From: Thermus thermophilus
GTDB lineage: Bacteria > Deinococcota > Deinococci > Deinococcales > Thermaceae
Direction of reading: 5' to 3'
DNA: 64,000 nt
Assembly (NCBI RefSeq): GCF_019974155.1
Contig: NZ_AP025158.1
Coordinates: forward strand, 620,001 to 684,000
Part shown: piece by piece, positions 24,368 through 30,844 of the stretch
How the letters are laid out: each line of letters begins with the position of its first letter
Position numbering within the stretch: the first letter of the stretch is position 1
The notes under the pieces: model-generated
Told to the model about the DNA's origin: nothing
The model's input: only the letters and a program-made list of their open reading frames with translations
Databases searched by the model: none
Translations under genes and position numbers: made by a program

Positions 24368-26251
24368 CTACTCCTCGAGGGTGGAGAGGTCCCCGGGGTC
24401 CTTGCCCAGCTCCTTGGCCTTGAGGAGCCGCCTCAGGATCTTCCCCGAGCGGGTCTTGGGGAGCTTGTCCAGGAAGACCACCTCGCTCGGCGTGGCGATG
24501 GGGCCAAGCTCCCGGCGCACGTGCTGGACGAGGGCCTCCTTCAGCTCCTCCGAGGGGGTTTGCCCAAGCCTAAGGACCACGAAGGCCTTGATGGCCTCCC
24601 CCTTCAGGGGGTCGGGGACGCCGATGACCGCGGCCTCGGCCACGGCGGGATGGGAGACCAGGGCGCTTTCCACATCGGCGGTGCCGATGCGGTGCCCGGC
24701 CACGTTCAAGACGTCGTCCGCCCGGCCCAGGACGCTGAAGTACCCCTCCTCGTCCCGGCTCGCCACGTCCCCGCTGGCGTAGACCCCGCCTGGGATCTCC
24801 CGCCAGTACTGGAGGTAGCGCTCGTGGTTCCCCCAGACGGTGCGCATCATGTGGGGGAAGGGCCGCTTGAGGACGAGAAGCCCGCCCTGCCCCGGGGGCA
24901 CGGGCCTCCCCTCCTCGTCCACCACCGCCGCCTCCACCCCGGGGAGGGCCACCCCGGCGAAGCCGGGCTTGGCGGGGAGGACGAGGGGCGTCCCTATGGT
25001 GGGGCCGCCGAGCTCCGTCTGCCACCAGTTGTCCGCCACGAACCCCCGCCTGCCCCCCTCCACCAGGTGCTCGTAGGCCCACTTCATGGCCTCGGGGTTC
25101 AAGGGTTCCCCGGCCACGGCCAAAAGGCGCAAGGAGCTAAGGTCGTACTTCCTGGGCCACTCGGGGCCGTACCTCATGAACATGCGCACCGCCGTGGGGG
25201 CGGTGAACATCACGTTCACCCGGTACCGCTCCACCGCCTGCCAGAAGGCCCCGGGGTCGGGGTGGTCGGGGGCCCCTTCCCGAAGGACGGAGGTCACCCC
25301 TTCCAGGAGGGGGGCGTAGACGATGTAGGAGTGGCCCACGATCCAGCCGATGTCGCTCGTGGCCCAGAAGACGTCCTCGTCCTTCACGTCAAAGAAGGTG
25401 CGCAGGTGGTAAGTGGTGCCCACCATGTACCCCCCGTGGACGTGGACCACGCCCTTGGGCTTCCCCGTGGAGCCCGAGGTGTAGAGGATGAAGAGGGGGT
25501 GCTCGGCGTCCACCATCTCCGCCCGGGCCTCCGGGGGGCTTTCCCAGAGGAGCTCGTGGAAGTCGTGGTGCCCCTCGGGGAGCTCCGCCTTGTAGGCCCG
25601 CTGGAACCAGACCACCTTGAGGGGGAGGTCGCGGATGGCCTCCTCGGCGATGCTCCTGAGGTCCACCCCCTTGCCCCGGCGGTAGCTCACGTCCCCGGCG
25701 ATGAGGAGCTTGGCCCCGGCGTCCAGGATGCGCTCCCTCAGGGCCGAGACCCCAAGCCCGGCGTAGACCACGCTGTGGATGGCCCCGAGGTAGGCCGTGG
25801 CCAGCATGGCCATGACGCCCTCCAGGGTGAGGGGCATGTAGATCACCACCCGGTCCCCCTTTTCCACCCCGAGGCGCCTAAGCCCCGTGGCCAGGCGGCG
25901 CACCCGGTCCAAAAGCTCCCCGTAGGTGAGCTTCTCCTCCCGGCCGTCCTCGGCGAGGTAGAGGAGGGCCACCTTGTTCCTTAGGCCCCTTTCCACGTTC
26001 CGCTCCAGGGCGTTGTAGACGGCGTTGGTGGTGCCGCCCAGGAACCAGCGGTGCTCGGGGAGGTTCCACTCCAGGACCTTCTCAAAGGGCTTTTCCCAGT
26101 AGAACCTCCGGGCCCACGCGCCCCAGAAGCCCTCGGGGTCCTCGAGGCTTTTCCGGTACTCCGCCGCGTAGTCCCGGAGGTTCGCCCTCTCCCTCAAGTC
26201 CTCAGGTGCCCAAAGCCGTTCCTGAACCTTAAGGAGCTTTTCCAGCGCCAT
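24368..26251 (-). CDS. Acetyl/propionyl-CoA synthetase (AMP-forming), second paralogue
   Basis: 627-residue AMP-forming acyl-CoA synthetase. The ATP loop [12 protein letters not shown], the acetate-pocket motif NWWQTELGG with the conserved Trp, the hinge [13 protein letters not shown] and the acetylatable catalytic Lys in KTRSGK near the C-terminus are all intact, so it should activate acetate or propionate. It starts 23 nt inside the end of the IclR-synthetase fusion gene, with a strong AGGAGG site before the ATG, and is surely co-transcribed with it. It is clearly diverged from the acs at 28898, so it is not a recent duplicate. Confidence 0.9.
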   Translation of the reverse strand: MALEKLLKVQERLWAPEDLRERANLRDYAAEYRKSLEDPEGFWGAWARRFYWEKPFEKVLEWNLPEHRWFLGGTTNAVYNALERNVERGLRNKVALLYLAEDGREEKLTYGELLDRVRRLATGLRRLGVEKGDRVVIYMPLTLEGVMAMLATAYLGAIHSVVYAGLGVSALRERILDAGAKLLIAGDVSYRRGKGVDLRSIAEEAIRDLPLKVVWFQRAYKAELPEGHHDFHELLWESPPEARAEMVDAEHPLFILYTSGSTGKPKGVVHVHGGYMVGTTYHLRTFFDVKDEDVFWATSDIGWIVGHSYIVYAPLLEGVTSVLREGAPDHPDPGAFWQAVERYRVNVMFTAPTAVRMFMRYGPEWPRKYDLSSLRLLAVAGEPLNPEAMKWAYEHLVEGGRRGFVADNWWQTELGGPTIGTPLVLPAKPGFAGVALPGVEAAVVDEEGRPVPPGQGGLLVLKRPFPHMMRTVWGNHERYLQYWREIPGGVYASGDVASRDEEGYFSVLGRADDVLNVAGHRIGTADVESALVSHPAVAEAAVIGVPDPLKGEAIKAFVVLRLGQTPSEELKEALVQHVRRELGPIATPSEVVFLDKLPKTRSGKILRRLLKAKELGKDPGDLSTLEE

Positions 26252-28766
26252 AGTCCTCCTCCAGTCCCGAGGTGTCCCCCGGGTCTAGGCCGAGAAGTTC
26301 CGCCTTAAGGAGCCGCCTCAGGATCTTTCCCGAGCGGGTCCGGGGAAGGCGTTCCCGGAAGAAGACCCTGGGGGGCGGAACAGGGCCCAGGTGCCGCAGG
26401 ACGTGGGCCTTGAGCTTTTCCGCCAGGAGGGGCTTGAGCTCCTCGGGGAACTCCCGGGCCTGCGGCACCACGAAGACGGCGATCTCCTCCCCCGCCTCCC
26501 CCGGCACCCCCACCGCGGCCGCCTCCGCCACCTGGGGGTGGGTGAGGAGGACGGCCTCCACCTCCGCGGGGCCGATCCGGGCCTCGCCCACCTTGATGAC
26601 CTCCTCGGTGCGGCCCAGGATGCGGAAGTACCCTTCTTCATCCATCTCCGCGAGGTCCCCCGTCCAGTAGAGGCCTCCCCGCCAGGGGGAGTGCCCCCCC
26701 CGGAGGTCCACCATGTGGGCGGGCCCCGTGGCGCCGAGGACCAGGTGCCCCTTGGTCCCGGGGGGGAGGGGCCGTCCCTCCTCGTCCACCACCCGGGCCT
26801 CCACCCCGGGGAGGGGGAGGCCCACGTAGCCGGGCTTGGCCGGGAGGGCGGGGGGCGTGGCCAAGGCGGGGGCCCCGAGTTCCGTCTGCCACCAGTTGTC
26901 CACGGGCCAGGCCAGGTGCTCCCGGGTCCAGCGCCAGATCTCGGGGCTCAGCACCTCGCCCACGCTCGCCGCCAGGCGGAGCCCCGTGGGCCGGGCCTCC
27001 CCATGGCGCCTCAGGGTCCGGAGCACCGCAGGGGAGGTGAGGAGGACGTCCACCCCGAGGTGGGCCAGGCGCTCGTAAAAGGCCCCGGGGCTCGGATGGT
27101 CGGGCCGGTCCTCCACGAGGAGGGAGGTGCCGCCAAGAAGCAAGGGGGCGTAGAGGCCGAAGGAGTGGCCCACGATCCAGAAGAGGTCGGCGGTGGTGTG
27201 GAAGACCTCCCCCGGTTTCAGGTCAAAGACGTGCCGGAGGGCCCAGGCGACCCCCACCATGTACCCCCCGTGGCCGTGGACCACGCCCTTGGGCTTTCCC
27301 GTGGAGCCCGAGGTGGGAAGGAGGAAGAGGGGATGGGCTGCGGGCACGGGCTCGGGCTCGGCGGGCCGGGCCTCGTAAAGCCGCTCCAGAAACTCGGGGC
27401 TTCCCCGGACGTGCCAGAGGACCTTAAGGTCCAGGCCTTGGATTGCGGCCTCCACCACCTCCCGCACCCGCACGGGCTGGCCCCGGTAGAAGTAGGCGTC
27501 CGCCGCCACGAGGAGCCGGGGCCTCAGGTCCTCGAGGCGCCGCCTCAGGGCCTCCGGGCCCAGGCCCAGGGGCAGGGCCGCGTGCACCGCCCCGATCCGG
27601 GCGCAGGCCAAGGCGGTGAGGGCGGCCTCGAGGCCCGTGGGCAGGTAGAGGGCCACCCTGTCCCCCCGCCCCACCCCCAGGGTCCGGAAAAGCCCGGCGA
27701 GCCTGCTTGAGAGCTCCCGGACCTCCTTGTAGGTCCACTTCCCAAGCCGCCCTTCCCCGTCCAGGGTGAGGAGGGCGAGTTGCTGGGCCTTTTCCGGGAG
27801 GTGCCGGTCCAGGGCGTTTAGGGCCACGTTGGTGAGGCCGCCCGCGAACCAGGTCCGGTCCTCCCGGCGGAAGACCGCCTTCCAGGGCCTCTCCCAGGCG
27901 AAATCCCGGGCGAAGCCTTCCCAGAAGGCCTCGGGGTCCTCGAGGCTCGCCCGGTGGGCGGCCCGGGGGTCGGGCAGGTTGGCGGCGCGGCGGAGGGCCT
28001 CGGGGGGGTCTATCCGCTCCACCCTTCCCGGCTCGGGGAGGGCGGGCGGGGGGGTGGGGGCCTCCTCCTCGGGCAGGACCTGGGCGGAGACCCGGGCCAC
28101 CTCGGCCAGGGCCCGGGCCAGGCGGCCGAAGGCGAAGGGGAAGCGGCGCGAGGGCACCTTGACCCCCAGGGCCCCGAGGAGGCGCCCCTCCGGGCTCAGG
28201 AGGGGGACGGCCACCCCGGAGACCCCGAGGGCGTACTCCTCCATCTCCACCGCAAGCCCCGAGGCCCGGACGCGCTTCAGCTCCTCCTCCAGGGCCAGGG
28301 GGTCGGTGAGGGTGTAGGGGGTCTTGGGGGTGAGGGGGGGCAGGGGGAAGTCCCCGAAGGCGAGGAGCACCTTCCCCAGGGCCAGGGCGTGCCACTCCGG
28401 GGGCAGGGCCTCCCCCAGGGGGTGGAGCTGGCCCTGCCGCCCCCGGGTCTTGAGCCGCACCCCCTGGGGGGTGAGGAGGGCGAGGTAGCACCGCTCCCGG
28501 GTGCGCAGGTAGAGTTCCTCCAAGGCCTCCTCCAAGGGCGTGGGCTCCAAGGGGACGGGCTTTTGCCGCGCGAGCCGGAAGCCCCCTTCCTCCTTCACCA
28601 CGAAGCCCTCCTCCATCAGGCTGTGGAGGAGGGCGTAGGCGGAGGAGAGGCTCTTTCCCAGGAGGCGGGCCACCTCCTTCGCCCCCACCCCTTCCGGGTG
28701 GTCCGCCAGGTAGGCCAAGAGGCGCAGGGCCTGCTGCACGGTGGAAAGCCCCCGCTTGCGCGCCAT
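26229..28766 (-). CDS. IclR-type transcriptional regulator fused to AMP-forming acyl-CoA synthetase
   Basis: 845-residue single open frame joining two normally separate proteins. Residues 1-65 are an IclR winged helix (STVQQALRLLAYLADHPEG, then ARLLGKSLSSAYALLHSLMEEGF); 75-230 are the IclR effector-binding domain (LALGKVLLAFGD, EYALGVSGVAVPLLSPEG); 231-255 are a Pro/Glu linker; 256-845 are a full acyl-CoA synthetase with [10 protein letters not shown] (485-494), WWQTE (625-629) and the acetylatable K814 in RTRSGK. The hinge has GRTEEVIKVGEAR instead of GRxDDVxNVAGHR, so activity may be altered. It is divergent from acs and upstream of a second synthetase. A role as a substrate-sensing autoregulator is inference. 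Confidence 0.9.
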   Translation of the reverse strand: MARKRGLSTVQQALRLLAYLADHPEGVGAKEVARLLGKSLSSAYALLHSLMEEGFVVKEEGGFRLARQKPVPLEPTPLEEALEELYLRTRERCYLALLTPQGVRLKTRGRQGQLHPLGEALPPEWHALALGKVLLAFGDFPLPPLTPKTPYTLTDPLALEEELKRVRASGLAVEMEEYALGVSGVAVPLLSPEGRLLGALGVKVPSRRFPFAFGRLARALAEVARVSAQVLPEEEAPTPPPALPEPGRVERIDPPEALRRAANLPDPRAAHRASLEDPEAFWEGFARDFAWERPWKAVFRREDRTWFAGGLTNVALNALDRHLPEKAQQLALLTLDGEGRLGKWTYKEVRELSSRLAGLFRTLGVGRGDRVALYLPTGLEAALTALACARIGAVHAALPLGLGPEALRRRLEDLRPRLLVAADAYFYRGQPVRVREVVEAAIQGLDLKVLWHVRGSPEFLERLYEARPAEPEPVPAAHPLFLLPTSGSTGKPKGVVHGHGGYMVGVAWALRHVFDLKPGEVFHTTADLFWIVGHSFGLYAPLLLGGTSLLVEDRPDHPSPGAFYERLAHLGVDVLLTSPAVLRTLRRHGEARPTGLRLAASVGEVLSPEIWRWTREHLAWPVDNWWQTELGAPALATPPALPAKPGYVGLPLPGVEARVVDEEGRPLPPGTKGHLVLGATGPAHMVDLRGGHSPWRGGLYWTGDLAEMDEEGYFRILGRTEEVIKVGEARIGPAEVEAVLLTHPQVAEAAAVGVPGEAGEEIAVFVVPQAREFPEELKPLLAEKLKAHVLRHLGPVPPPRVFFRERLPRTRSGKILRRLLKAELLGLDPGDTSGLEEDYGAGKAP

Positions 28767-28800
28767 GGGTTGAGCTTATCTTCCCACCCCTCCAGGCGCC

Positions 28801-28855
28801 GGGTCAAGAAACGCCCTCTTTGGGGCATGGCGCAAAAACCCCGCTTTCTTGACCC
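28801..28855. promoter_or_regulatory. 11-bp inverted repeat flanking the divergent acs / IclR-synthetase promoters
   Basis: GGGTCAAGAAA (28801-28811) and its exact complement TTTCTTGACCC (28845-28855) are separated by 33 nt. The right copy contains TTGACC (28849-28854), which with TACCCT (28872-28877, 17-bp spacer) forms the likely acs promoter. The left copy holds TTGACC on the minus strand facing the fusion gene, where the -10 is poor (GATAAG at 28780-28775, 21-bp spacer). It is a candidate operator for the IclR-type fusion. Confidence 0.55.
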
Positions 28856-28897
28856 CGCCTGGTCCCGCGCCTACCCTTCAAGGTAAGGGAGGGAGGC

Positions 28898-30844
28898 ATG
28901 GACAGGCTGGAGTCGGTGCTCAAGGAGGAGCGGGTCTTTTACCCCAGCGAGGAGTTCCGCAAGCAGGCCCACATCAAGAGCGAGGAGGAGTACCAGCGCC
29001 TTTACGAGGAGAGCGTCCGCGACCCCGAGGGATTCTGGGGACGGGTGGCCTCGGAGCTCCACTGGTTTGAACCCTGGCGGAAGGTCCTGGAAGGGGACCT
29101 GCCCCACCCCAAGTGGTTCGTGGGGGGGAGGACCAACCTCTCCTACAACGCCCTGGACCGGCACGTGAAGACCTGGCGGCGCAACAAGGCGGCCATCGTT
29201 TGGGAGGGGGAGCCGGGGGAGGAGAGGGTCCTCACCTACCATGACCTCTGGCGCGAGGTGCAGAAGTTCGCCAACGTCCTCAAGCGCCTGGGGGTGAAGA
29301 AGGGGGACCGGGTCACCATCTACCTCCCCATGATCCCCGAGGCGGCCATCGCCATGCTCGCCTGCACCCGGATCGGGGCCGTCCACTCCGTGGTCTTCGG
29401 CGGCTTCTCCGCCGGGGCGCTCGCGGACCGGATCAAGGACGCCGAGGCCAAGGTCCTCATCACCGCCGACGGGGGCTTCCGCCGGGGCGGGATCGTCCCC
29501 CTCAAGCAGAACGCCGACGAGGCCCTAAAGGACGCCACGAGCGTGGAGCACGTGGTGGTGGTGCGTCGCACCGGGGAGGAGGTGCCCTGGACTCCGGGCC
29601 GGGACCACTGGTGGCACGAGCTCATGGAGGCCGCCTCCGACCGGTGCGATCCCGAGCCCATGGAGGCGGAGGAGCCCCTCTTCATCCTCTACACCTCGGG
29701 CTCCACGGGGAAGCCCAAGGGGGTCTTGCACACCACGGGCGGCTACATGACCTACGTCTACTACACCACCAAGCTCGTCTTTGACCTCAAGGACGAGGAC
29801 GTCTACTGGTGCACCGCCGACGTGGGCTGGATCACGGGCCACTCCTACGTGGTCTACGGGCCCCTCCTCAACGGGGCCACCACGGTGATGTACGAGGGGG
29901 CCCCCAACTGGCCCGAGCCCGACCGCTTCTGGCGGATCGTGGACAAGTACGGGGTGACCGTCTTCTACACCGCCCCCACCGCCATCCGCAGCTTCATGAA
30001 GTGGGGCGAGGGCTGGCCGGGCAAGCACCGCCTGGACTCCCTGAGGCTCCTCGGCACCGTGGGGGAGCCCATCAACCCCGAGGCCTGGCTCTGGTACTAC
30101 CACGTGATCGGCAAGGGCCGCTGCCCCATCGTGGACACTTGGTGGCAGACGGAGACGGGGGGCATCATGATCACCACCCTGCCCGGGGCCCACGCCATGA
30201 AGCCGGGGCACGCCGGGAAGCCCTTCTTCGGCGTGGTGCCCGAGATTTTGGACGGCGAGCACCGCCCCGTGGAGAACCCCGACGAGGGAGGCCACCTCTG
30301 CATCACCCGCCCCTGGCCCAGCATGCTCCGCACCGTCTGGGGCGACCCGGAGCGCTTCCTAAAGCAGTACTTCAGCCAGCACCCCGGGGTCTACTTCACC
30401 GGGGACGGGGCCCGGCGGGACAAGGACGGCTACTACCTGATCCTGGGCCGGGTGGACGACGTCTTGAACGTGGCCGGGCACCGCCTGGGCACCATGGAGA
30501 TTGAGTCGGCCCTGGTCTCCCACCCCGCGGTGGCCGAGGCGGCGGTGGTGGGGAGGCCCGATCCCGTGAAGGGGGAGGCCATCGTGGCCTTCGTGACCCT
30601 GAAGGAGGGGCACACCCCCTCGGACGCCCTCAAGGACGAGCTCAGGGCCCACGTGGCCAAGGTCATCGGCCCCATCGCCCGCCCGGACGAGGTCCGCTTC
30701 ACCGACGCCCTGCCCAAGACCCGCTCGGGCAAGATCATGCGCCGCCTTCTCCGGCAGATCGCCGCCGGGGAGAAGGAGATCAAGGGGGACACCTCCACCC
30801 TCGAGGACCGCTCCGTGGTGGAGCGGCTGAAGGAGGGGGCCTAA
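28898..30844 (+). CDS. acs: Acetyl-CoA synthetase
   Basis: AMP-forming acetate-CoA ligase, 648 aa, the usual length. It carries the N-terminal ACS domain, [12 protein letters not shown] (ATP loop), TWWQTETGG (acetate pocket Trp), [29 protein letters not shown] (hinge) and the C-terminal [11 protein letters not shown] with the regulatory acetylation Lys. GGGAGGGAGGC precedes the ATG. The promoter is TTGACC-17 bp-TACCCT within the 131-bp region shared with the IclR-synthetase fusion. A strong hairpin follows the stop. Confidence 0.96.

Follow-up and report, generated by a model that had tools for sequence, protein, structure and literature searches.

A candidate operator shared by the divergent acs and IclR–acetyl-CoA synthetase fusion promoters of Thermus

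Comparative analysis indicates that one operator of an IclR–acetyl-CoA synthetase (IclR-ACS) fusion protein probably serves two divergent promoters in Thermus thermophilus, those of acs and of the fusion gene, and that these genes, together with an actP-like symporter operon, would constitute a small acetate regulon. The best-supported candidate for the operator is a pseudo-palindrome lying between the arms of a perfect inverted repeat, which is likelier to be the binding site than the arms, with the AAA/TTT ends of the arms as its predicted outer boxes. In the proposed arrangement, the 55-bp element would be a compact divergent control region, in which one A/T-flanked palindrome of about 19 bp sits midway between two back-to-back promoters, the outer AAA and TTT boxes follow one helical turn further out, and the −35 hexamers abut these boxes (Table 1). 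The arms would form an inverted repeat because the same edge, an outer box plus a −35 hexamer, is used in both directions.

The divergent locus and its inverted repeat

In the window, a 64,000-nucleotide stretch of the T. thermophilus genome, ACS2, the fusion (through its ACS half), and acs make up a 6.5-kb divergent locus at 24368–30844 with three coding regions resembling acetyl-CoA synthetase. The end of the fusion gene shares 23 bp with ACS2, and the two genes are probably carried on the same transcript. The fusion comprises the Pfam domains HTH_IclR (E = 2.7e-13) and IclR_C (E = 4.4e-14), both above the gathering score, followed by ACAS_N, AMP-binding, and AMP-binding_C. Against the AcsA model (TIGR02188) it scores 448, below the curated cut-off of 724.95; its ACS half retains the TGD, GR, WWQTE, and RSGK motifs, with GHR reading EAR, and in several Thermus genomes I, R, or T stands in place of the P-loop lysine. 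A literature search of open-licence papers found none on such an IclR-ACS fusion.

Table 1. Coordinates of the features of the divergent locus, numbered within the window
Feature	Position	Strand	Basis or remark
acs, acetyl-CoA synthetase	28898..30844	+	TIGR02188, 1023.7 bits (cut-off 724.95)
IclR-ACS fusion, 845 aa, proposed cognate regulator	26229..28766	-	Pfam domains
ACS2, second ACS paralogue	24368..26251	-	TIGR02188, 729.4 bits, just above cut-off (724.95)
Left arm, GGGTCAAGAAA	28801..28811	-	Composite: predicted fusion −35 and outer operator box
TTGACC, predicted −35 of fusion	28802-28807	-	Within left arm
AAA, proposed outer operator box	28809-28811		Same register (−18..−16 from central AT) at actP
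Central pseudo-palindrome TTTGGGGCATGGCGCAAAA, proposed core operator	28819..28837	.	Conserved TTT-n5-AT-n5-AAA; actP-profile match
Right arm, TTTCTTGACCC	28845..28855	+	Composite: outer operator box and predicted acs −35
TTT, proposed outer operator box	28845-28847		Within right arm
TTGACC, predicted −35 of acs	28849-28854	+	Within right arm
TACCCT, predicted acs −10	28872..28877	+	17 bp from −35; conserved
GAAGAT, probable fusion −10	28778..28783	-	18 bp from −35
TAAGCT, alternative fusion −10	28773-28778	-	Overlaps GAAGAT; 6 nt before ATG

The fusion protein has matches in all 27 Thermus genomes searched, 26 of which have a readable acs/fusion gap, and its IclR half is also present in further genera of the same family and in a single genome from another one. 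acs diverges from the fusion gene in 26/26 assembled Thermus loci and in the 22 other loci read (22/22). In T. parvatiensis RL (G017:C1:800649-803179), the fusion gene matches as two overlapping pieces at 97–98% identity; it is therefore either broken there or affected by a sequencing error.

The geometry of the repeat is as the first-pass annotation had described it: the two arms are complementary at 11 of 11 positions, lie 33 nt apart, and span 55 bp from outer end to outer end and 44 bp from center to center, with an outward-facing TTGACC in each. The bare repeat is only moderately unlikely: Markov-1 copies of the 131-bp intergenic region contain perfect 11-bp inverted repeats with arms at most 60 apart with a probability of P = 0.0055, and repeats of this kind occur at about a dozen further loci of the window, so that the repeat on its own is weak evidence. 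What raises it above chance is its conservation across genomes.

The reading of the hexamers as outward −35 elements also held up, in that the TTGAC of each arm has a −10-like element suitably spaced from it and behaves like part of a promoter. The acs −10 is TATCCT or TATGCT in most relatives, and the fusion −10 position is kept as [GC]AnnAT in most genomes. These promoter calls rest on the conserved −35 and −10-like elements and not on a generic sigma-70 scan, which reported no promoter here. The short leader predicted for the fusion is in line with the leaderless pattern that has been described in this phylum (PMC12340547). An RNA element was rejected as an explanation: no Rfam match was found in 28500–29200, and both predicted start sites are located downstream of the arms.

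Conservation of the arms and the central palindrome

The comparison covered 26 Thermus genomes with an assembled acs/fusion region and 22 related genomes. Conservation of the element, its fixed geometry, its second target, and its absence from genomes that lack a close fusion homologue can all be read directly from these and the control genomes described below. The divergent gene pair and both arms are kept in 48/48 of these heat-loving bacterial genomes, with GTCAAGAAA and TTTCTTGAC kept in 26/26 Thermus and slightly varied forms in the 22 others; the alignment across Thermus that the first-pass annotation had suggested thus finds the arms kept beyond the −35 hexamers. The repeat owes its length of 11 rather than 9 bp to its outermost base pairs, which are not conserved; most Thermus have TGTC opposite GACC. 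The distance from GTCAAG to CTTGAC is 45 in 44 of the 48 genomes, 46 in three, and 47 in one.

Between the arms, Thermus genomes share a third conserved block, which reads TTTGGCAAATGGTGAAAAA in most species and TTTGGGGCATGGCGCAAAAA in the genome analyzed here. The relatives show tGTCAAG(A/T)AA, a TTT-n5-AT-n5-AAA center, and slightly altered forms of TTTCTTGAC. In an alignment of 44 regions, the information content amounts to 1.67 and 1.69 bits per base in the two arms and 0.96 in the center, compared with 0.32–0.37 bits in the gaps and the following flank. The AAA and TTT boxes recur 10 bp apart on either side of the center, an arrangement that would suit a dimer of dimers. When Thermus and Meiothermus-like profiles of the center are aligned, the flipped alignment scores better (18.4 versus 13.3 bits), and in non-Thermus genomes the matches of the actP-trained profile (see below) at the center lie mostly on the minus strand, which is no more than suggestive of a center flipped between the two groups. 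Genome G014 combines the most diverged center with a spacing of 47 and yields no actP-like match at 1e-100; its system is possibly decaying.

A second copy of the module upstream of an actP-like operon

Seven TTTCTTGAC sites occur in the T. thermophilus genome, two of which are the arms. One of the other five lies behind TTTTGCGCATAACCGCAAAA, upstream of the genes for a DUF4212 protein and a sodium:solute symporter of TIGR03648. In most Thermus genomes this actP-like operon (DUF4212, TIGR03647/03648) is preceded by CTTTTGCGCATnnnCGCAAA and then TTTCTTGACA-17-TAAGAT, and the T. thermophilus genome and G017 carry variants of the CTTTTGCGCATnnnCGCAAA/TTTCTTGACA module. The operon sits just downstream of ACS2 in most Thermus; it is about 0.6 Mb from acs in the T. 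thermophilus genome, about 0.4 Mb in G017, and on another contig in G016, and the module is kept in each case. A search of the T. thermophilus genome with the pattern TTTNNGCATNNCNNAAA returned no match because the spacing in that pattern was wrong. Another TTTCTTGACA lies shortly upstream of an apparent tRNA gene (L087, G000:C1:1616385), where no operator-like palindrome accompanies it.

The symporter scores 795.8 bits against TIGR03648 (cut-off 320.75) and 154.1 bits against the ActP model TIGR02711, below its curated cut-off of 1099.25; acetate is therefore only its presumed substrate. Downstream of the operon in T. thermophilus, a gene (L109:7562-9361) encodes a cNMP-binding/CBS/DUF294 protein, a plausible further player in the control of the symporter.

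The comparison with actP separates the components of the arms. AAA at positions −18 to −16 is strongly conserved at actP in Thermus, on a side where no divergent promoter is expected, whereas the outer flank corresponding to GTCAA carries 0.29 bits there as against 1.3–1.5 bits at acs/fusion. AAA/TTT is therefore assigned to the operator, and TTGAC to the promoters. Counted from the central AT, TTGAC lies at 22 nt in acs as in the 29 extracted actP promoters, and at 23 in actP of G071; the figure at actP is partly built in because extraction looked for AT at 22.

An operator profile was trained on actP promoter cores only and used to scan both strands of the acs/fusion gaps. Its best match fell within 1 nt of the acs/fusion center in 35 of 48 genomes (offset 0 in 32, including T. 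thermophilus at 16.8 bits; offset 1 in G005, G049, and G050). The 13 genomes in which it missed the exact center are 12 Meiothermus-like genomes and G014 with its diverged center; in these the best match is weak or lies at another place, frequently close to the start codon of the fusion. In Meiothermus-like loci such as L071 and L074, the start-codon matches lie about 100–127 nt from the center and perhaps only reflect conserved N-terminal codons resembling CGCAAA. In Thermus genomes, the operator pattern at zero or one mismatch occurs only at the actP position; two-mismatch matches occur elsewhere, and a reversed-pattern control yields such matches too.

Eight genomes that lack a close fusion homologue, six from other families and two (G054 and G060) from the same family, showed no palindrome upstream of acs in the profile scan, with best scores of −5.4 to 2.7 versus a median of 17.5. 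This co-occurrence of operator and fusion could also stem from common descent or from another linked regulator.

The predicted regulator and its alternatives

A simpler account would be that each arm is no more than a strong −35 region preceded by the same TTTC, a promoter consensus used twice without a dedicated operator. The fit of each TTGAC to a −10-like element agrees with this, as do two further observations: C precedes TTGAC in 11 of 13 promoter-like sites found in 464 kb of the T. thermophilus genome, a small sample, and three of the eight genomes without a close fusion homologue (G036, G037, and G060) keep a plain CTTGAC upstream of acs, the rest being missing. However, TTT precedes the −35 in just one of the 13 sites, that one being acs, the 45-nt spacing is fixed, the center is conserved, and the same center is present at actP, which makes this account unlikely. 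The first-pass annotation had instead viewed the arms as paired operators of the fusion protein, holding two dimers on one DNA face or forming a loop. The arms are indeed the most conserved segments, their 44-bp distance is near four helical turns, and in the IclR family, sites spaced about three and four turns apart are over-represented (PMC8222616). Yet actP lacks GTCAA on its promoter-less side while keeping the center and the AAA box, and promoters explain the TTGAC part, so that such pairing appears very improbable; the arms as the sole operator are rejected in light of the actP comparison.

The palindrome might also be bound by a different regulator encoded elsewhere, the fusion being merely a linked enzyme. 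Further IclR-like genes are present in the genome, and the site does not fit the published IclR motif classes, group 1 (GKTYCRYW3-4RYGRAMC) and group 2 (TGRAACAN1-2TGTTYCA) (PMC8222616): in the T. thermophilus genome, the best group 1 match is 12 of 17–18 positions, off center and against a shuffled mean of 12.1–12.7, and the group 2 match is at the level expected from shuffled sequence. Against this stand the predicted targets, only the fusion/acs locus and actP, a local scope usual for IclR-family regulators (PMC8222616), and the lack of the site before acs in genomes where a close fusion homologue is missing; binding by such a regulator is judged improbable. The adjacent fusion is most likely the binder, being the simplest candidate: local, divergent, of the IclR type, and present where the operator is. 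The link to the IclR-type fusion made in the first-pass annotation is accordingly kept as probable. With the fusion as binder, a single site would control both acs and the fusion itself with ACS2, and the second copy of the module would extend control to the actP-like symporter operon. We infer that the fusion binds the site and that acetate use is what is controlled.

In several respects this arrangement resembles PcaU, PobR, and HmgR (PMC8222616), which likewise combine HTH_IclR and IclR_C, diverge from their target, use alternating boxes, in keeping with the multi-box sites described for the IclR family, and have a tiny regulon, as is predicted for the fusion. The center of the palindrome (28828) lies 70 nt before acs and 62 nt before the fusion, similar to those systems and within the 20–80 nt before the gene start published for IclR sites (PMC8222616). 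Unlike those regulators, the fusion continues into an acetyl-CoA synthetase, and the spacing of the boxes matches neither the group 1 nor the group 2 consensus. The grouping of acetate activation and related genes under one regulator is reminiscent of CrbS/CrbR (MxtR/ErdR) in Pseudomonas and Vibrio (PMC5715377, PMC8402216), which is a two-component system, whereas a single protein with its own ACS half is proposed here.

The direction of control is finely balanced. Because the distance from operator to −35 is fixed in independent promoters, activation through direct contact with RNA polymerase is slightly favored over repression; a repressor whose effect is lifted by acetate or one of its derivatives would also be compatible with the near-consensus −35 elements. 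More speculatively, the fusion might be a one-chain metabolic sensor, its ACS half binding or making acetyl-adenylate or acetyl-CoA and thereby setting DNA binding of the IclR half at the single operator shared by two promoters. BirA-type enzyme-repressors (biotin ligase) combine an adenylating enzyme and a DNA-binding domain in one chain. As a working analogy, the fusion would likewise join an adenylating-type enzyme to a DNA-binding domain in a single chain, although the protein families are unrelated.

More generally, the analysis predicts an operator, its targets, and a probable regulator of acetate use across the Thermaceae, in which the regulator is joined to an enzyme of its own pathway. 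If binding by the fusion proves true, this would be a small and well-defined system in which to ask if an enzyme domain is able to signal its own substrate to DNA.
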